Assembly (NCBI GenBank): GCA_020073445.1 | Contig: JAIQFE010000011.1 | Span: forward strand, 62,001 to 126,000 | DNA length: 64,000 nt | Origin: Terriglobia bacterium | GTDB taxonomy: Bacteria; Acidobacteriota; Terriglobia; Bryobacterales; Bryobacteraceae | Direction: 5' to 3' | In this document: in pieces, positions 42,960 to 51,820 of the stretch | Numbering within the stretch: the first letter of the stretch is position 1 | Layout: every line of letters starts with the position of its first letter | The notes under the pieces: generated by a model | Seen by the model: the letters and a program-made list of their open reading frames with translations, nothing else | Databases searched by the model: none | Told to the model about the DNA's origin: nothing | Translations under genes and position numbers: made by a program

Positions 42960-43601
42960 ATGACACCCTTCCCCGTCTACTTGTTCGACGTAGACGGAAC
43001 GTTGATGGACTCCGCGCCGGATATCTGCGCGGCGCAGCTCGCTGTTCTGGCCGCGAATGGCCGGGACAATGTTTCCGAAGAATTCCTGCGGCGCTACATC
43101 GGCCGTCATCTGACCGATCTATTTCAGGACCTGGGTTTCGGCAATGAGGCCATGGAGCCTCTCATCCAGAGCTACCGCACCACCTACTGGGCTCGAAAAC
43201 ACGCTGCCACACGGGTGTTTTCGGGCGTCGCGGAGATGCTCGATTCTCTAGGCGGGCGCAAATCGACCGCCACCATCAAAACCACGCAGACCACGCGCGG
43301 CGTACTGGAGCAGTTCGGATTGCTCCAGCATTTCGATCATGTGCAGGGGACCGACGGATTCCCGGCCAAGCCGGAACCGGATGTGATTCTGGCGTCGTTG
43401 CGAGCGTTGGGCGCGAGTCCCGAGCAGTGTCTGATGGTGGGTGACGCGGCCTCGGACATGGAAGCAGGCCGTCGCGCCGGCGTCAAGACCTGTGCCGTGC
43501 GATGGGGATATGGCAACCACGAGGAGATGGCCCGGTGGGAACCGGATTACTGGATCGACGAGCCGCGGCAGCTACTATTGCAGGCGGGCAAGCTCGCCTA
43601 G
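42960..43601 (+). CDS. HAD phosphatase, phosphoglycolate-phosphatase-like
   Basis: 213 residues. HAD motifs: YLFDVDGTLMDSAPDI, ATIKTTQTTRGVLEQFG, KPEPDVILASLRALG (motif III Lys-containing) and CLMVGDAASDMEAGRRAGVKT (motif IV). The four-helix cap type fits Gph/YieH-like enzymes; substrate uncertain. ATG 42960 comes only 7 bases after REPIN copy B, without an obvious Shine-Dalgarno, so translation starts in an unusual setting. Its 3' end overlaps convergent hisA by 27 bases. Confidence 0.85.
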   Translation: MTPFPVYLFDVDGTLMDSAPDICAAQLAVLAANGRDNVSEEFLRRYIGRHLTDLFQDLGFGNEAMEPLIQSYRTTYWARKHAATRVFSGVAEMLDSLGGRKSTATIKTTQTTRGVLEQFGLLQHFDHVQGTDGFPAKPEPDVILASLRALGASPEQCLMVGDAASDMEAGRRAGVKTCAVRWGYGNHEEMARWEPDYWIDEPRQLLLQAGKLA

Positions 43602-44252
43602 GTCCAGCCGGCCCGTATAGATCGCCATCCCGAGCGCTGCGTGAACGTTGATCGCGGATAGAGCGCGGATGTCGTCGAGCGTGGTGATGCCGCCGGCCGC
43701 CGTGATCTCGTGGTTGGTGGCAGCGCGCAGACGGCGAAACCAATCGAGATCCGTCCCCTGCATCATGCCTTCTTTATCGACGTAGGTGCACAGGAATCCT
43801 CTGCAGAACGGCTCCAGGCGGCCGATCACTTCTTCCGCGGTGAAATTCGTGGCCTCCTGCCAGCCCTTGACGACGATCTTCCCGCCTTTCGAATCCAGCG
43901 CCACGATTACACGTTCGGGGCCGACCGCTGACGCGATCTGTTCCAGCGCGGGTGTAAATGCCGCCGTGCCAACGATCACACGGAACGCGCCCTGGTCGAT
44001 CAGTTTTTTCGCGCGCTCGGGGGTTCGTACTCCGCCGCCAACGCGGCAGCGGGCTTTCCCGGCGACGAGTTCCACCAGCGACGAATTCTCGCCCTTGCCC
44101 ATGGCGGCATCCAGATCGATGACTTGGATTTCGGGGAACGCGGCGAACTTGCGCAGCATCTCGAGCGGCGCGTCGCCTTCGAGAGCTTTGTCACGGCCTT
44201 GAACCAGCTGAACGACCTTGCCGTCCATGAGATCGATGCAGGGAATAATCAT
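43575..44252 (-). CDS. hisA: ProFAR isomerase
   Basis: 225 residues, beta-alpha barrel isomerase of the fourth step of histidine synthesis. Typical [46 protein letters not shown], and [14 protein letters not shown]. It is last in the operon. The 3' end overlaps the HAD phosphatase gene on the opposite strand by 27 bases. A 4-base overlap joins it to hisF. Confidence 0.93.
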
Positions 44253-45016
44253 CGGCGTATAGGGACATTGTGCCCCGCCAGGAATTGCTTCAGATCGCCG
44301 ACGGTGTAGGTGCCGTAATGGAAGATAGAGGCAGCGAGAGCGGCGTCAGCGAATTCAAGCACCTTAAGAAAATCTTCGGGTTTCCCGGCGCCGCCGGAAG
44401 CGATCACCGGAATGTGCGTGGCGTTGTGCACCGCGAGAGTCAGCGGGCAATCGAAGCCCGTCTGGACTCCATCGGTATCCATGGATGTGAGCAAGATCTC
44501 GCCTGCGCCCAGTTGTTCACCGCGGGCGGCCCACTCCACTGCATCCATGCCTTCGTCGTGGCGGCCGCCGCGGGTGTAGACATTCCATCCGCCGCCGCTC
44601 TGATTTGCGTTGGCCCTCCTGCGCGCGTCGATGGCGAGGACCACTGCCTGTGATCCGAATTCTTCGCTCAGTTCGGTGATGAGCTCGGGCCGGCGCACCG
44701 CGGCGGTATTGACGCTGACCTTGTCCGCGCCCGCGTGCAGGATGCTGCGCGCATCGTCGACGCTGCGGATCCCCCCGCCCACCGTAAGCGGAATGAAAAC
44801 CTCGCGCGCGGTGCGGGAGACCACGTCGATCATGGTGTCGCGATTGTCGCTCGACGCGGTGATGTCGAGGAACACCAACTCGTCGGCGCCTTGTTCGTTA
44901 TAGCGCGCGGCCAGCTCCACGGGATCACCGGCGTCGCGAAGGTTGACGAAGTTCACGCCTTTGACCACACGGCCGGCGGTGACGTCGAGACACGGAATGA
45001 TTCTTTTAGCCAGCAT
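44249..45016 (-). CDS. hisF: Imidazole-glycerol-phosphate synthase, cyclase subunit
   Basis: 255 residues. Barrel with the two half-barrel phosphate sites: [84 protein letters not shown] and [14 protein letters not shown]. With HisH makes IGP and AICAR from PRFAR and glutamine. Start ATG 45016 (MLAKRII) is the family's usual start; GTG 45031 is in frame upstream. A long inverted repeat at 45026-45088 lies between it and hisH. Confidence 0.94.
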
Positions 45017-45025
45017 TTTTGAATC

Positions 45026-45088
45026 GCGCACAACGCAGCGGGATGCGAGCGTTAAGAGAAAAATCGGCGCGCATCCCGCGCTGTGCGC
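45026..45088. repeat. Inverted repeat (about 21-bp arms) between hisH and hisF
   Basis: Left arm 45026-45047 (begins GCGCACAACGCAGCGGGATG) and right arm 45068-45088 mirror each other with one or two indels, leaving a loop of about 20 bases. It fills most of the 72-base gap between hisH (stop 45089) and hisF (start 45016) and has no T tract. It could be a mobile palindrome or an intra-operonic hairpin that adjusts relative expression. Confidence 0.65.
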
Positions 45089-45679
45089 TCATGCCTCGCT
45101 CTCCACGAAATTCTTCACAATCTGGAGCCCCGCGGGTCCCGATTTTTCGGGGTGAAACTGCACACCCCGGACGTTGGCTTGCTCGAGGATGGCTGTGTAC
45201 GGCACTATGTAATCGCACACGGCAGCGGTTTCCGGAATCACCGGACAGTAATAACTGTGCGCGAAATATAGGTACGTCGGGGACGCGAGCAAAGTGTTCG
45301 GCCGGCAGGGTTGCACCTGATTCCAGCCCATGTGCGGGATACGAAGTTCCCCGCGAAAGCGCTTGACTTCGCCGGGATAGATCCCGAGTCCGCGCTGATC
45401 GGGTGCCTCTTCGCTCGACTCGAACAGAGCCTGCAAGCCAAGGCAGATGCCGAGAAAGGGAACGCCCGCGCGAATGCGCTCGATCAGGGCGTCGCGAACC
45501 TGCAGATCGTCGAGCGCGCGCATCATCTGCCCGAAGTGGCCGACGCCGGGGAGGATCAGCTTTGTAGCTTGTCGAATACCTCCGGCATCGCGAATGAGTT
45601 CGTACTCGGCTCCGATGGCGCCCAGGGTGTTCTGAACCGACCGAAGATTGCCGGCGCCGTAGTCGAATACGCTGATCAC
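45089..45679 (-). CDS. hisH: Imidazole-glycerol-phosphate synthase, glutaminase subunit
   Basis: 196 residues. The class I amidotransferase shows [37 protein letters not shown] with the catalytic Cys, and [20 protein letters not shown] with the His-Glu of the triad. Supplies ammonia to HisF. It overlaps hisB by 4 bases, while hisF follows after a 72-base palindromic gap. Confidence 0.94.
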
Positions 45680-46263
45680 AGCAGCCCCTTAGTCGACGGC
45701 AGCTGCTTCTTCAGGCGCGCGTCTTTCGAGCACGCGTAGCGCATGGCGCGGGCGAAGCATTTGAAGATCGCCTCGATCTTGTGGTGATTGGACCGGCCGT
45801 AGAGCACCTTGGCGTGCAGATTCGCGGCGGCGTGGTTGACGAAGCCGTCGAAGAAATCATGGACGAGTTCGGTTTGCAAATCGCCGACCAGCCGCGTCTT
45901 CACCAGATCTTTGTAGACGAGCGCCGGGCGTCCGCCCAGATCGACGGCGACAACCGCCAGCGTTTCGTCCATCGGCAACACGAAATAACCGGCCCGATTG
46001 ATCCCGCGGCGGTCACCCAGGGCTTTCGCGAACAACTGGCCCAGAACGATACCCACATCTTCCACGGTGTGATGCTGGTCTACGTCTAAGTCGCCTTTGG
46101 CGACTAGCTTCAGGTCGAAGCCGCCGTGCTTCGTGAACAATTCCAGCATGTGATCGAAGAAGCGGATGCCGGTGGAGATCTGGTAGGCTCCTTGACCTTC
46201 AATGGTGAGGCTGCCGCGGATCTGCGTCTCTTTGGTGTCGCGCTGGATGGAGGCTTTTCTCAC
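45676..46263 (-). CDS. hisB: Imidazoleglycerol-phosphate dehydratase
   Basis: 195 residues, monofunctional dehydratase (no N-terminal histidinol phosphatase). Metal-binding motifs: [54 protein letters not shown]. Starts with GTG. It overlaps the HAD phosphatase gene by 4 bases, suggesting that the phosphatase function of bifunctional HisB is delivered by that neighbour. Confidence 0.94.
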
Positions 46264-46931
46264 AGTGCACCTTCGATCTCGTTCACGTTTTCCAGAACAG
46301 CCACCGCATTCTCTTCGCGAAACAGCCGCAGAATCTCGTCTCGCCGGGAATGGCTCTGCGCCGCGATCCCGATGAACGGGACTCCGGCCGCGCGGGCCGA
46401 GCGTGCGTCGTCGACGGTATCGCCGACATACCAGAGTTTGCGCCCCGGATGGCGGCCCTGAATCGCGAGCAAACCCTCGGGATCAGGCTTGGCTCTGGCG
46501 ACGTGCTCCGCACACAGCAGCGGATCGAACCGGCAACCCGCGGCGAAGCGCTTGAGCGTGATTTCAGCCTCGTATTGCAGGCGGCCGGTGAAGATTGCCA
46601 GGCCAAATCGCTCGCGCAGGCGTTCCAGCAGGCCGGGCTTGGGGAACCATTGTTCACGCTGGATCAGGCCGTCACCGTTTTTGCCGATGAAAATCTCGTT
46701 GAAATAATCCACGACGGTGTTGTACGGAACGGCTACGCCCAGATCAGCGGCGATCTTCTGCGAGAGAGCCCAGTCGTTGTTCCAGCCACCCTGGTTCTTG
46801 TAGTCCTGGATGAGGTCGCGCTCGATCCGCTTGCCGGTGAAATGTTCGACGGTTTGCACGATCGCCTCGCGGTAGGATTCGGTCACTTCCGCCAGCACAC
46901 CGTCCATGTCGAACACGACTATTCCTTCCAC
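46260..46931 (-). CDS. HAD phosphatase inside the his operon, candidate histidinol-phosphatase
   Basis: 223 residues. HAD core motifs: [20 protein letters not shown] (Asp nucleophile), [18 protein letters not shown] (Thr), [14 protein letters not shown] (Lys) and [28 protein letters not shown] (Asp). A cap domain of the IA type lies between (about residues 16-90). It is embedded in the operon with overlaps on both sides (13 and 4 bases), and the operon has no hisN, bifunctional hisB or hisK. The simplest reading is that it carries out histidinol-phosphate dephosphorylation. Related HAD proteins linked to his genes are known (I recall a TIGR01548-type family), but the activity is inferred. Confidence 0.75.
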
Positions 46932-47977
46932 AACGTCTCCAGTTCAGTGAAAAAACGCTCGACCTGCGATCGCGTGCCGATGGTGACACGCACGCATCCC
47001 GGGATTTCGTAACTGCGGTCGCGCACCAGAACGCCGCGCTCGCGAAGTGCGTCGCGGATCGGGATCGCACGGTCGCCTGCTTGGAACAGCACGAAGTTTG
47101 CCTGGCTTGGGAAATATTGGATACCGAGCCGCTCGAAGCCGACGTAGGCCATTTCGCGAGCGGCCAGCGCCTCGCCGACGTACTTCGCGATGTGCTCGCG
47201 ATCCTGTACAGCCGCGCGTGCCGCGATCACCGCGAGCATGTTCACGCTGTAGGGCGACTGCGCCTTCCGAACCCACGCGATATTCTCCGCGCAGCTGAAC
47301 AGACAGCCGCAGCGCATGGCGGCCATGCCGTAGGTTTTTGAAAACGTCCGGCTGACGAACAGGTTCTTATATTTGTTGATCCAGCGGAGCGCTGTGACAC
47401 CGTAGAACTCGAAATACGCTTCGTCGATCAGTACGGCAGCATCGGGAGCAGTTTCGAGGATCAGCTCGATCTGGTCGAGCCCGATTGCGGACCCGGTGGG
47501 ATTGTTGGGATTGGCGATCAGGATCGCGCGAGTCTCCGGCCGCATCGCATCCAGGAACTCGGTGACCGGGAAGCTGAGATCGCCGGCGTATTCGACTTCG
47601 CGCACGGACGCCCCCGCCACCTCCGCGTAGAACTTGTACATCGCATAGGAAGGCTTGAGCAGCAGGACGTCGTCGCCATCATCGACAAACGTGTTGATCA
47701 GGAGCTGGATCGCCTCATCGGTGCCGTTGGTGATGGCGAATTCCTCGGGCGAGACGCCGAAGAACGCGCCCAGGTCGCGCCGGGCATCCTGATATTCGGG
47801 ATAGATGGTCAGATGGTCGGCAGTCAGGTACTGCTGCACGCACTCGATCACTTTCGGCGAGCAGCCTACTGTGTTCTCGTTGAAATCCAGGCGCAGTTTC
47901 CCGGCACGCCCGGCCGAGGGCGGGGAATAGGGCGCCATCGCCTCGATGGCCTCGCGTGGCGTGAGAGCATCAGCCAT
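46919..47977 (-). CDS. hisC: Histidinol-phosphate aminotransferase
   Basis: 352 residues of fold type I. Features: LRLDFNENTVGCSPKVIE, NANNPTG-like IANPNNPTGSAI, VLIDEAYFEFYG, and the PLP lysine in SRTFSKTYGMAAMRCG. Transfers an amino group to imidazole acetol phosphate. It overlaps hisD by 8 bases upstream and the HAD gene by 13 downstream. Confidence 0.93.
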   Translation of the reverse strand: MADALTPREAIEAMAPYSPPSAGRAGKLRLDFNENTVGCSPKVIECVQQYLTADHLTIYPEYQDARRDLGAFFGVSPEEFAITNGTDEAIQLLINTFVDDGDDVLLLKPSYAMYKFYAEVAGASVREVEYAGDLSFPVTEFLDAMRPETRAILIANPNNPTGSAIGLDQIELILETAPDAAVLIDEAYFEFYGVTALRWINKYKNLFVSRTFSKTYGMAAMRCGCLFSCAENIAWVRKAQSPYSVNMLAVIAARAAVQDREHIAKYVGEALAAREMAYVGFERLGIQYFPSQANFVLFQAGDRAIPIRDALRERGVLVRDRSYEIPGCVRVTIGTRSQVERFFTELETLWKE

Positions 47978-49193
47978 GGCGAACCTCGACCGATCGCGCG
48001 TGCGCTTCCAGGCCCTCGGCGCGAGCCAGAGTGGTGACCGCGGGCCCCAAGGATTTGAGCGCGGCCGGACTCAGTTCCTGCACTGAGATCACCTTGACGA
48101 AGTCCGCCGCTGACAGGCCGCCGCGCAAACGGGCTTGGCCCGAAGTCGGCAGCACGTGATTGGGACCCGAAGCGTAATCTCCCGCAGCTTCGGGGCTCGA
48201 AGGTCCCAGAAACACAGAGCCAGCGTTCTGAATCGAACTGAGTAGGGCGGGATCGTGCAACGCAAGGTGCTCCGGCGCGAGCGAGTTCGAAAACTCGACG
48301 GCGCGTTCCAAGGAATCGACGATCACGATTGCGCCATTGTTGTCGATCGACGGGCGCGCGACGGCGGCGGTCGGCAAGGAATGAAGCTGACGCTCAACCG
48401 CTTCAGCTACGGCGTTCGCCAGCTCGCGCGACGTCGTGAGCAAGATCGCCGAGGCATCCACATCGTGCTCGGCCTGAGCCAGCATATCGGCGGCAATCCA
48501 CTCCGCATTGCCTTCCGCGGCTATGATCACGATCTCGGTCGGCCCGGCCACAAAGTCGATGCCGGTTTCCCCGGCGATCAGCTTTTTCGCAGCGGCGACG
48601 TAGATGTTTCCGGGACCAACGATACGATCGACGCGCGGAACGGTGGCCGTTCCGAACGCCAGCGCGGCAATCGCCTGCGCTCCGCCCATCTGGAAAAAAT
48701 GCGTCACGCCGAGCCATGCGGCGATCCCCAGGATTTCGGCGCTGGGGTGCGGGCAGGCGACGCAGGTAGTCTTCACGCCGGCCACCTGCGCCGGGATGAT
48801 GTTCATCAGCAGCGTGGAGGGCAGAGGATAGCGGCCCGCGGGCGTGTACGCGCCCATGGAATCGAGCGGCCGGACGATCTGGCCCAGCTTGCGGCCGTCC
48901 GGATATTCCACCATCTTCTCCACGGGAAGCTGCAGGCGGGCGTATTCGCGGACGTTGGTATCGGCGATGCGCACGGCGCGCCCGAATTCCGGCTCAAGTG
49001 TGCCATGCACCGGGATGCGCACGCTGGATCCTTCGAAGCCGTCGAATTTGCGTGCGTACGCCAGTAGGGCGGCGTCGCCCTCACGGCGGACATCTTCCAG
49101 GATCGGCGCGACGATGCGCTCGGCGTCTTCCAGCCGCTGCGTTTTGCGCGCGACGAGAGTCTGCGCTTCCCGATGATTGATGATCCTGATCAT
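47970..49193 (-). CDS. hisD: Histidinol dehydrogenase
   Basis: 407 residues. Zinc- and NAD-dependent enzyme of the last two oxidations. Conserved regions: GAYTPAGRYPLPSTLLM, GGAQAIAALAFGT, DRIVGPGNIYVAAAKK, AEHDVDASAILLTTS, and APEHLALHDP with the general-base Glu-His. It lies 9 bases after hisG and overlaps hisC by 8. Confidence 0.95.
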   Translation of the reverse strand: MIRIINHREAQTLVARKTQRLEDAERIVAPILEDVRREGDAALLAYARKFDGFEGSSVRIPVHGTLEPEFGRAVRIADTNVREYARLQLPVEKMVEYPDGRKLGQIVRPLDSMGAYTPAGRYPLPSTLLMNIIPAQVAGVKTTCVACPHPSAEILGIAAWLGVTHFFQMGGAQAIAALAFGTATVPRVDRIVGPGNIYVAAAKKLIAGETGIDFVAGPTEIVIIAAEGNAEWIAADMLAQAEHDVDASAILLTTSRELANAVAEAVERQLHSLPTAAVARPSIDNNGAIVIVDSLERAVEFSNSLAPEHLALHDPALLSSIQNAGSVFLGPSSPEAAGDYASGPNHVLPTSGQARLRGGLSAADFVKVISVQELSPAALKSLGPAVTTLARAEGLEAHARSVEVRHG

Positions 49194-49202
49194 GTGGATG
49201 GC

Positions 49203-50072
49203 CTACATCACGATTTTGTTCAGCGGATATTCGACGATGCCCTGTGCGCCGGCTTCCTTCAGACGTGGAATGATGGTGCGCACGGTGGCTTCGTCAAGGA
49301 TAGTGTTGAGCGCCAGCCAGTCGCCATCGCTCAGGGGCGAGATGGTCGGCTTCTTCAGCGCGGGCAGGACGCCCAGAACGCTGTCCAGGTTTTTCTTTTC
49401 CACGTTCAGCATCAGTCCGACTTTGCCGAGCGCGTTAATGGCGCCTTCCAGCAGCATCCGCATGTCTTCCAGCTTGCGCCGCTTCCACGAATCCTTCCAG
49501 GAGTTGACGTTGGCGATGAGCTGAGTATTCGATTCCATCACGGTCTCGACGATCCGCAGCTTGTTAGCGCGCAGAGAGGAGCCCGTTTCGGTAACTTCCA
49601 CGATGGCGTCGGCCAGCTCGGGAGGTTTCACCTCGGTCGCACCCCAACTGAATTCGACCTTCGCGGTCACGCCGTGGGACTTTAGATAGCGCTCGGTGGC
49701 AGCTACCAGCTCGGTGGCGATGATTTTGCCTTGCAGGTCCTTGACGGTTTGCACTGGCGAGGATTCCGGCACCGCCAGCACCCAGCGCACTTTGCCGAAG
49801 CTCTGCTTGGCGTAGATCAGATCGGCGACCGTCTGGACCTGAGCGTCGTTTTCCTGGACCCAGTCGCGGCCGGTGAGGCCGGCATCGAGCACGCCGTCTT
49901 CTACGTAGCGCGCCATTTCCTGAGCGCGAATCAACATGCACTCGATTTCGGGATCGTCGATCGCAGGGAAATAGGAGCGGCTGCTAACGGTGATCTGGAA
50001 TCCCGCGCGGCGAAAGAGATCGACGGTCGCATTTTCGAGACTGCCTTTAGGAATACCGAGTTTGAGTTTCAT
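49203..50072 (-). CDS. hisG: ATP phosphoribosyltransferase, long (HisG_L) form
   Basis: 289 residues. First and committed step. The catalytic core has [51 protein letters not shown], and [22 protein letters not shown] (PRPP loop). The last about 75 residues ([32 protein letters not shown]) form the C-terminal allosteric histidine-binding domain, so no HisZ is needed. Follows hisI with no gap. Confidence 0.95.
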
Positions 50073-50447
50073 TTAATTTCCGTAGACGGCCTTGGGGTCG
50101 TAGGCTTGAGTATCGGTAATCTTCCATTCGTTGCCGTCGAGCTTGCGGAAGAAACAGCTTTCATAACCTTCGTGGCAAACGCCTGGGCCGAGCGCCTCAC
50201 ACTTCAGAAGCACCGCATCGCGATCGCAATCGGTCGAGATTTCCTTGACCACCAGCTTGTGGCCGGAACTCTCGCCCTTGAGCCAAAGCTTGTTGCGCGA
50301 GCGACTGTAGAAGACGGCGTTGCCCGTCTCGACAGTCTTGCGGAAGCTTTCCTCGTTCATGAAGCCGACCATCAGGACGCGCCCCGTTTTCCAATCTTGA
50401 ATCACTGCGGCCACCAGGCCATCCAGTTTGCTGAAGTCCAGTTCCAT
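50073..50447 (-). CDS. hisI: Phosphoribosyl-AMP cyclohydrolase (HisI, without HisE)
   Basis: 124 residues. Typical VAAVIQDWKTGRVLMVGFMNEESFRKTVETGNAVFYSRSRNKLWLKGE, DCDRDAVLLKCEALGPGVCHEGYESCFFR with the zinc cysteines. It lacks the phosphoribosyl-ATP pyrophosphatase (HisE) domain fused in many bacteria. It is first in the operon, with AGGA about 8 bases before ATG 50447, and lies 14 bases downstream of the attenuator terminator's T run. Confidence 0.94.
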   Translation of the reverse strand: MELDFSKLDGLVAAVIQDWKTGRVLMVGFMNEESFRKTVETGNAVFYSRSRNKLWLKGESSGHKLVVKEISTDCDRDAVLLKCEALGPGVCHEGYESCFFRKLDGNEWKITDTQAYDPKAVYGN

Positions 50448-50460
50448 AGTTGTTTCCTAT

Positions 50461-50491
50461 AACAAAAAAGCCCACCGTTTCCGGCGGGCTC
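50461..50491 (-). terminator. his attenuator terminator
   Basis: On the minus strand, AGCCCGCCG (50490-50482), loop GAAA, then CGGTGGGCT (50477-50469) form a 9-bp stem with one G-T pair, followed by six T's. It lies between the leader peptide and hisI and would stop transcription when histidine-tRNA is plentiful. Confidence 0.85.
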
Positions 50492-50519
50492 AGTTGATCT
50501 CACTTCCAGTTGACTTGGT

Positions 50520-50588
50520 TTATGCGTGAGCCCGTAACGCACCATTTGCGTGGTGATGATGGTGCATATGATGGCGGGCCACAAACAT
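50520..50588 (-). CDS. hisL: his operon leader peptide, 22 residues
   Basis: ATG 50588 to TAA 50520. After MFVAR come seven histidines in a row of eight residues (HHMHHHHH), and an eighth near the end. The peptide ends RAHA. Its codons lie directly before the attenuator stems, so ribosome stalling at the His codons would report charged tRNA-His. There is no Shine-Dalgarno; the predicted transcription start lies within a few bases of the ATG, implying leaderless translation. Confidence 0.85.
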   Translation of the reverse strand: MFVARHHMHHHHHANGALRAHA

Positions 50589-50597
50589 AGAAACTAC

Positions 50598-50606
50598 AGT
50601 ATACCA
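50598..50606 (-). promoter_or_regulatory. Extended -10 promoter of the his operon
   Basis: Minus-strand TGGTATACT: an extended -10 element (TGn followed by TATACT). No good -35 is visible. It puts the transcription start near 50591, 3-4 bases upstream of the leader ATG. Confidence 0.6.
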
Positions 50607-50638
50607 GATTCTCAAGCCAACGCTTGCTCCAGGTCGGC

Positions 50639-51820
50639 CTAGGCGCGGAGCGCCTGTTCCAAATCCGCGATGATGTCCTCCACCGCCTCGATACCCACCG
50701 ATATCCGCATCAGATTGTCGCGAATCCCCAGACGTTCGCGATGCTTGGGCGAAAGATCGCGATGCGATCCCATGACCGGATACATCATCAAAGTGTGCAC
50801 ATCGCCGAGCGAGGTGGCACGCACCACCATCTGCAGCTTTTCCATGAATCGGAAGACTTCCGTGCGACCCGCGCCCTTCAGCTCAAATGACACCAGCCCG
50901 CCGTAACGATTCGGCGGAAACAACCGGCCGATGGAATCGGCATCCGGATGTTTCGGATCGCCCGGGAAAAATGTTCGCTCCACGCGCGGGTGCGCCGCCA
51001 GCCAGGACGCGACCTTGCAGGCGTTGGCGCACTGCCGCTCGACGCGCAATGCGAGTGTCTTGATCCCGCGCAGCGTCAAATAACTTTCGAACGGACCCAT
51101 GACCGGACCGATCGTACGGGAAAGCGTCCGCAGCGCGTCAAAGTTCGCCTGATCCGCCACGATCACGCCGCCGAGAACGTCGCCATGGCCGGCCAGGTAT
51201 TTGGTGGCGCTGTGGCAAACGATATTCGCGCCGAGCTCCAGCGGCCGGACGAGCATTGGCGTGGCGAACGTGTTATCGACGATCAGCGGCACATCCGCGG
51301 CACGGCAGATCGCCGCTATTTTATCGAGCGCCGGCACGCGCAGTAGAGGATTCGCGATGGTTTCGACGACCACTGCAGCGGTCTTCTCTTCGTTCAGCGT
51401 CGCTTCGAAGGCGGCCAGATCGCAGGGATCGACCTGCGCCGTCTCCACTCCCAGAGGGCCGAATATGTTCATCAGCATGGAAGTGGTGGCGCCGTACATC
51501 ATGTTCGCGGCGACCACGCGTTTGGGCCGGTCCATCAACGCGGCGAGCACAGCCATGTGGATGCCGGCCATCCCCGAAGCGCAGGCGATCGCGCCGGCAC
51601 CGCTTTCGAGCTCCCGGACTAATTCCTCCAGCGCCGAACGCGTGGGGTTATCGTAACGCGCGTAGGACGGGCCGGATTCCTCCAGCGCAAACACGCGATC
51701 GAGCTGCTCCATCGATTCGTAGACGTAGCTTGCCGCCGTGTAGATCGGAGTCGTAACAGGAGTGAAATTGCCAGCCTTGCGGCGGTCGCCCCAGTGAACG
51801 GTCTTGCTTTCGATTTTCAT
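50639..51820 (-). CDS. Cys/Met-metabolism PLP enzyme (cystathionine gamma-synthase/methionine gamma-lyase type)
   Basis: 393 residues. Fold type I: TTPIYTAASYVYESMEQL, YARYDNPTR, ACASGMAGIHMAVLAALM, VDNTFATPMLVRPLELGANIVCHSATKYLAGHGDVLGG with the Schiff-base Lys, and the family Arg in RISVGIE. Could be cystathionine gamma-synthase, gamma-lyase or methionine gamma-lyase; context does not decide. It overlaps cysS by 4 bases, so both may serve cysteine metabolism. Confidence 0.9.
   Translation of the reverse strand: MKIESKTVHWGDRRKAGNFTPVTTPIYTAASYVYESMEQLDRVFALEESGPSYARYDNPTRSALEELVRELESGAGAIACASGMAGIHMAVLAALMDRPKRVVAANMMYGATTSMLMNIFGPLGVETAQVDPCDLAAFEATLNEEKTAAVVVETIANPLLRVPALDKIAAICRAADVPLIVDNTFATPMLVRPLELGANIVCHSATKYLAGHGDVLGGVIVADQANFDALRTLSRTIGPVMGPFESYLTLRGIKTLALRVERQCANACKVASWLAAHPRVERTFFPGDPKHPDADSIGRLFPPNRYGGLVSFELKGAGRTEVFRFMEKLQMVVRATSLGDVHTLMMYPVMGSHRDLSPKHRERLGIRDNLMRISVGIEAVEDIIADLEQALRA

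Follow-up and report, generated by a model that had tools for sequence, protein, structure and literature searches.

The minus strand of the window, by which we mean the whole 64-kb stretch of DNA analysed, carries a histidine biosynthesis operon with the gene order hisI-G-D-C-HAD-B-H-F-A (Table 1). The HAD-family hydrolase encoded between hisC and hisB is a candidate histidinol-phosphate phosphatase; by inspection, neither a hisE nor a histidinol-phosphate phosphatase besides this candidate was noticed among the ORFs of the operon. A short leader region precedes hisI, and upstream of the leader a PLP-enzyme gene runs on the same strand, its end lying ~30 bp from a -10 box and ~50 nt from the leader ORF.

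Table 1. Features of the his operon and its leader (window coordinates).
Feature	Position	Strand	Sequence or basis
PLP-enzyme gene	50639-51820	minus	upstream of leader; stop at 50639
Extended -10 promoter element	50598-50606	minus	TGGTATACT; read in sequence
Leader peptide ORF	50520-50588	minus	MFVARHHMHHHHHANGALRAHA*; 22 codons, 7 His in 8 codons
His-rich stretch of leader ORF	50573-50550	minus	
Segment 1, protector strand	50575-50582	minus	GUGGCCCG; pairs with segment 2 when ribosome absent (folding)
Segment 2, antiterminator 5′ arm	50527-50534	minus	CGGGCUCA / CGGGCTCA; first base 12 nt ahead of leader stop codon
Segment 3, antiterminator 3′ arm	50485-50492	minus	UGAGCCCG / TGAGCCCG; overlaps terminator 5′ arm
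Intrinsic terminator (segments 3:4)	50491-50468; with U run to 50464	minus	GAGCCCGCCG-GAAA-CGGTGGGCTT
U run of terminator	50469-50464	minus	six T's
hisI, phosphoribosyl-AMP cyclohydrolase	50073-50447	minus	first gene of operon; NCBIfam NF000768, 150.8 bits, cut-off 126
hisG	49203-50072	minus	TIGR00070 and TIGR03455 above cut-off
hisD	47970-49193	minus	TIGR00069 above cut-off
hisC	46919-47977	minus	TIGR01141 above cut-off
HAD-family hydrolase	46260-46931	minus	TIGR01548, 130.5 bits, under cut-off 140.2
hisB (dehydratase)	45676-46263	minus	NF002111 above cut-off
hisH	45089-45679	minus	inspection of sequence and gene order
hisF	44249-45031	minus	inspection of sequence and gene order
hisA	43575-44252	minus	inspection of sequence and gene order

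The leader holds the parts that the sequence-only reading had described: a 22-residue peptide with seven His in eight residues directly before hisI, two antiterminator arms that are complementary over 8 pairs, and a terminator stem followed by six T's. Among the 1928 start-to-stop short ORFs of the window, with the leader ORF counted together with its alternative starts, this ORF alone exceeds four His in eight residues, and five was the most reached in 20 mononucleotide-shuffled windows (1.28 Mb). The fold check proposed in the same reading gave z = -2.95 for the 146-nt leader, with none of 200 shuffles equally stable. An extended -10 element also lies inside the interval singled out there (50461-50606) and had gone unmentioned.

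The terminator is the sole terminator-like site found in a scan of 50400-50800, and it could conceivably serve the PLP-enzyme gene that ends so close upstream on the same strand, with the His-rich ORF being a chance occurrence or an unrelated small gene. Relatives of the operon bear on this point. The best 80 of 522 HisI relatives, 97-69% identical, come nearly all from Bryobacteraceae, Bryobacterales, Solibacter, Terriglobia or Acidobacteria, and the acidobacterial host that had been suspected from the sequence is thus borne out. One contig titled Bordetella parapertussis (L086, CALQCC020000041.1) encodes a HisI 77% identical to that of the window, and its 200 bases before hisI are identical to those in a genome of the window's genus; it is apparently a mislabelled acidobacterial MAG.

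The hisI loci compared numbered 137, of which 57 came from 61 genomes searched (the window's own included) and 80 from further contigs; a second HisI place in G052 (46% identity) was left out. Merging loci with identical last 200 bases gave 120 distinct upstream regions. The relatives keep the His peptide: a leader ORF in which codons for the operon's own amino acid are clustered, as is expected of ribosome-mediated attenuators, is found in 105/120 of the regions (at least 3 His in 10 residues; 7 His in 8 in the window). An intrinsic terminator before the first structural gene, also characteristic of the class, was found by script in 103 of the 105 (hence both parts in 103/120), the remaining 2 giving none, and at least one of the script-found terminators (L121) looks spurious by eye. 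Inspection of alignment A1 shows that the leader peptides differ between relatives yet keep the His run, with CAT and CAC codons mixed, a pattern that points to selection acting on the peptide.

A His-rich leader is lacking in fifteen of the 120 regions, of which 12 belong to f3 genomes and the others are L015/L112 (where the flank is cut off at 269 nt), L019/L088 and L027. The f3 genomes (L337-L344, L346-L350) are relatives in the window's order, and the leader at hisI is missing in 12/18. In 8 f3 genomes the window's HisG gave no more than weak partial matches, and the 1.5 kb upstream of these held no His-rich leader. Because these matches are weak and partial, f3 genomes seem to use a different HisG, probably the short form, and it is possible that their his genes were replaced and the attenuator lost. 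In L027 (Bryobacteraceae) the TGGTATACT box and the terminator are kept at about 1420-1500 with no leader ORF between them, a gap that may reflect a deletion or an assembly error.

The distribution of the leader across the phylum was followed with an RNA model, R1, built on alignment A1. From 103 leaders, 90 had a -10 match, 79 passed a length and redundancy filter, and 73 were left in the alignment after a further six were removed (L076, L099, L101, L114, L115, L121). R1 gives one match at E ≤ 0.001 in the window's 6.58-Mb assembly. Against 396 genomes of the phylum it matched 98 genomes at E ≤ 0.001, in 100 places, of which 96 were examined; G064, G072, G323 and G354, where only the 3′ part of the model matched, were left out, and L168 and L169, two weak matches in the window's own genome, were likewise left out of the locus classification. 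A his gene stands downstream in 82 of the 96 loci, one per genome (3 of them training genomes), which is a lower bound for the 396 genomes. The first gene behind these 82 leaders is hisI in 71, hisG in 9 and hisD in 2, and every one of the leader ORFs has at least 4 His in 10 residues. The leader-bearing genomes span 14 families and 42 genera; 40 of them belong to the window's class and 42 to other classes.

Fourteen R1 loci had no his match by tblastn; of these, L203, whose leader and terminator lie at the end of a contig, looks real, as does L221, and the other 12 are without a convincing His leader. The His-rich leader of L221 has a TAGACT box 10 nt upstream and precedes what by inspection are a hisZ-like gene and, after it, a short hisG. 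R1 undercounts leaders, because among the 11 f8 genomes that it had missed, 9 gave a HisG match and all 9 carried a leader there. Among 8 genomes missed by R1 outside the window's class, HisG matched in 5 (four weakly) and a leader was present in 1/5; in some lineages outside the class the leader may thus be absent or placed elsewhere. The recurrence of such leaders before his operons with different first genes in many families, and the co-occurrence of the His run, the antiterminator and the -10 box, make it hardly credible that the terminator belongs to the PLP-enzyme gene, a reading that conservation had already contradicted.

Compensatory changes in relatives had been named as the comparative test of the antiterminator, and the leaders passed it both by permutation of the arms in two sets of loci and by co-variation in the alignment. 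In the hisI set (103 loci) the arms of the same leader pair at -16.1 kcal/mol as against -15.0 kcal/mol for swapped arms, and in the phylum set (75 loci) the values are -15.9 and -14.4 kcal/mol; 0/5000 permutations reached the observed value in either set, with ancestry ignored. Without the training genomes L138-L140, 79 loci were available for the phylum set, which holds 77 of them, L187 and L215 having fallen outside the limits of the script; a terminator was found in 75/77 of its leaders. In the alignment of 73 leaders, 74.4% of antiterminator cells are paired compared with 34-47% in slid registers, and 95.7% of terminator cells are paired. Antiterminator cells with double changes number 50 against a shuffled mean of 32, and the covariation score is 0.179 against 0.120 in shuffles (0/500 for each, relatedness ignored).

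The co-variation lies in the three outer pairs of the antiterminator, for example columns 111-175 (CG 13, GC 12, UA 6, AU 4), and these pairs are unpaired in 29, 34 and 41 of the 73 rows; the five inner pairs show hardly any change on both sides. Across the antiterminator, neither pairs changed on both sides (3 vs 3.3 in shuffles) nor further pair types (16 vs 15.2) exceed the shuffled values, and a register slid by -3 gives 64 double-change cells, more than the 50 of the true register. An antiterminator that excludes the terminator, with co-variation support from an analysis that ignores relatedness, is among the attenuator features present.

The geometry of translation was modelled with an assumed ribosome footprint of -15 to +12 nt. 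Under this assumption segment 2 is exposed at the His codons and masked at the stop codon, as the attenuator class requires: it stays clear of a ribosome whose A site holds the first His codon of the run in 100/103 loci, although clear at each His codon of the run in only 72/103, and a ribosome at the stop codon overlaps it in 97/103. The segment 1:2 duplex is stronger than the shuffled mean in 80/103 leaders. For the window's leader, the predicted fold without a ribosome contains segments 1:2 and the terminator; with a stalled ribosome and segment 4 unmade it contains the antiterminator (-20.7 kcal/mol for a ribosome at the first His, -15.8 kcal/mol at the last); and with a ribosome at the stop codon it contains the terminator alone. 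Once segment 4 is present the terminator appears in the minimum-energy fold in all ribosome states, and therefore the order of synthesis matters: the antiterminator is assumed, as is usual for attenuators, to win only before segment 4 is made.

The start of the leader ORF sets this attenuator apart. In the window the ORF begins 9 nt past the -10 hexamer, without a Shine-Dalgarno-like 4-mer. The distance from the end of a TANNNT box to the leader start codon is 8-10 nt in 98/105 hisI leaders and 58/77 phylum leaders; it is 18-20 nt in 1/105 and 2/77, and 28-30 nt in 0 and 1. Occurrences of the box at 8-10 nt number 101 and 58 in the two sets, compared with shuffled means of 5.1 and 2.3. The 105-leader set was picked by His content alone; the 58/77 figure is not fully independent, as the R1 training leaders all had a TATACT-like box. 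In the f8 leaders missed by R1 and found via HisG, the box stands at 8-10 nt in 9/9. At least one of the seven exceptions in the hisI set, L035, was given a start too far downstream by the script, and has an in-frame upstream ATG 8 nt after a TATAAT. TATACT is matched at 5 or more of 6 positions in 90/103 leaders, with TGn before the hexamer in 75/90 and a -35 match (at least 4 of 6) in only 20/90. Shine-Dalgarno-like 4-mers precede the leader start in 7/103 and 7/77 leaders, but by the same test hisI itself has one in only 26/103, and since it fails in 77/103 a missing Shine-Dalgarno sequence is, alone, weak evidence.

In 3 acidobacterial genomes an average of 13.3% of genes have been predicted to be leaderless, with a TANNNT about 10-12 bp before the start as the criterion (Zheng et al. 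2011, PMC3160421). By the criterion as given there, the position of the box would class the leader ORFs as leaderless: it is so placed that transcription is predicted to start at the start codon. With the box 8-10 nt before the start, and mostly no Shine-Dalgarno sequence, the transcript from which the leader peptide is translated is probably leaderless. The same attenuator might instead be Shine-Dalgarno-led or have a longer 5′ untranslated region, if the main promoter is other than the TANNNT box or the transcript begins farther upstream. Transcripts of the upstream gene could run into the leader, and such read-through transcripts would not be leaderless because that same-strand gene ends so shortly before the -10 box; moreover, in the first leader of the tandem f22 form (see below) the TANNNT is, by eye, separated from the ATG by 17-18 nt in three genomes and by 11 nt in one, and a GAGG stands near the start, so that this ORF is not clearly leaderless. 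A longer 5′ untranslated region is nevertheless unlikely as the general arrangement, given the narrow spacing of the box, which occurs at the greater distances in at most 2 leaders of a set, the frequent TGn extension, and, by eye, no other shared promoter-like element in the 48 nt upstream.

The element is thus very likely a histidine-responsive, ribosome-mediated his operon attenuator with a leaderless sensor ORF, as judged from sequence comparison and modelled folds; from these we infer the transcription start, the translation of the leader and the response to histidine. RNA polymerase, to judge from the -10 position, would start at the leader AUG or no more than about 3 nt from it, and a ribosome would load straight onto this 5′-terminal AUG and trail the polymerase. 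When charged His-tRNA is scarce, the ribosome would stall in the His run, upstream of segment 2, allowing segments 2:3 to pair as the antiterminator while segment 4 is still to be synthesized, and transcription would continue into the his genes. When histidine is plentiful, the ribosome would move on to the stop codon, which lies 12 nt beyond the first base of segment 2, and cover this segment, so that the 3:4 terminator forms. If no ribosome loads, 1:2 and 3:4 would form and transcription would end too.

Control by a T-box, a riboswitch or a protein-binding leader, with the peptide being secondary, is a further option, given that T-boxes or HisR control his genes in other phyla (from the part of PMC9413887 concerned). 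For the acidobacterial leader it is highly improbable: the window contains no match at the gathering score of any Rfam family, a T-box covariance model finds no match there or at E ≤ 10 in 50400-50680, none of the eight families listed at E ≤ 10 in that interval is a T-box or riboswitch, and the alignment shows little conservation in the 19-72 nt that separate the ORF from the terminator. Among Rfam families, Trp_leader comes closest to a match in 50400-50680, with 23.4 bits against a cut-off of 41.

In the enterobacterial hisL scheme the leader stop codon lies near segment 2. The leader ORF of the window shares this position with hisL (RF00514), as it does the run of His codons and a terminator directly before the his operon, so that the comparison drawn in the sequence-only reading holds for peptide, pairings and operon position. 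It fails in that the ORF appears leaderless and that the leader falls outside the Rfam family as modelled: RF00514 His_leader (gathering score 49 bits) has no match in the window, nor at E ≤ 10 in 50400-50680, and none in L002, L146 and L233, whereas E. coli scores 131.6 bits. Conversely, R1 finds E. coli hisL with 28.9 bits over model positions 14-148, the promoter part left out, a match that is a general resemblance. The two systems also differ in that the hisL operon begins with hisG, and the acidobacterial operon begins with hisI here and with hisG or hisD elsewhere, and in that 38 nt separate the AUG of E. coli hisL from TAGGTT, which we take to be its -10 hexamer, compared with 8-10 nt from -10 to start codon in Acidobacteriota.

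Several attenuators in other phyla share single properties with this one. The mycobacterial poly-cysteine sORFs (Canestrari et al. 2020, as described in PMC9031893) are likewise leaderless sORFs of contiguous codons for one amino acid that regulate the genes downstream, but with another amino acid and in another phylum. In Sinorhizobium meliloti the 5′ end of the trpL attenuator RNA (rnTrpL) is at the ATG of the leader ORF, as stated in the passage concerned of PMC7298713; that system responds to Trp and belongs to Alphaproteobacteria, and there the 5′ end is stated whereas for Acidobacteriota we infer it. Corynebacterium glutamicum (passages on his genes in PMC3896937) combines leaderless his mRNAs with attenuation control of a his operon, but the leaderless ORFs are structural genes, and for the hisD leader, which lacks a His-rich ORF, a T-box has been proposed. 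Histidine leader-peptide attenuators, with His-rich peptides, terminators and antiterminators, have also been predicted in non-Proteobacteria, namely Firmicutes (PMC2965389; PMC9413887, with 17 genomes in its table), another phylum, and a leaderless start goes unmentioned in the sections concerned.

The occurrence of such an attenuator outside the Proteobacteria, which the sequence-only reading had stressed, is therefore correct for Acidobacteriota and not new by itself. In the passages on Acidobacteria, leader genes are reported by distance only in PMC4833913, and the predicted attenuators had almost no assigned function in PMC2965389. No acidobacterial His attenuator is described in the literature searched, with the likeliest survey (Lopatovskaya et al. 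2010) outside that search, and no leaderless His leader peptide was met in it. His attenuators outside the Proteobacteria and leaderless attenuators (mycobacteria, S. meliloti) are already in print; what is probably new here is the leaderless start of a His attenuator, in Acidobacteriota, which is well supported by comparison.

A tandem form is found in 4/4 f22 genomes inspected (L187, L190, L215, L333), where two successive His-rich ORFs, with a terminator after each, precede hisG. Attenuators placed in series in this way would be expected to multiply their effects. Attenuation by this means may be limited to his in the genomes related to that of the window: among trpE-like (25), leuA-like (30) and ilvB-like (30) loci (L236-L320) from 25 related genomes each, one scan found no leader and terminator together, although the same scan found both parts in 38/57 hisI loci. 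It gave isolated terminator-like sites at L258 and L288, and isolated short ORFs behind a TANNNT at L252, L261, L262 and L292. For each locus the scan covered the 350 nt that precede the longest frame, or a shorter stretch in L252, L283, L290 and L312; paralogues and cut genes are among the loci, and some of them may not head their operon.

In teaching, ribosome-mediated attenuation is usually presented as a device of enterobacteria. With regard to the phylum, we lean slightly towards the view that the leaderless poly-His attenuator is an ancestral, phylum-wide histidine control that stayed in place as the first gene of the operon changed (hisI, hisG, hisD, apparently hisZ) and that was doubled in one family. 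If this is true, no Shine-Dalgarno step would be needed for leaderless loading to link the first ribosome to the polymerase, and ribosome-polymerase coupling would take a simple, testable form, with no 5′ untranslated region and no Shine-Dalgarno-dependent loading to vary; the tandem form of f22 would offer a natural test of attenuation in series. Attenuation appears to be the standing control of his operons in much of Acidobacteriota, a large and little-studied phylum, and the conserved box and ORF would provide a direct handle for annotating his operon promoters there.
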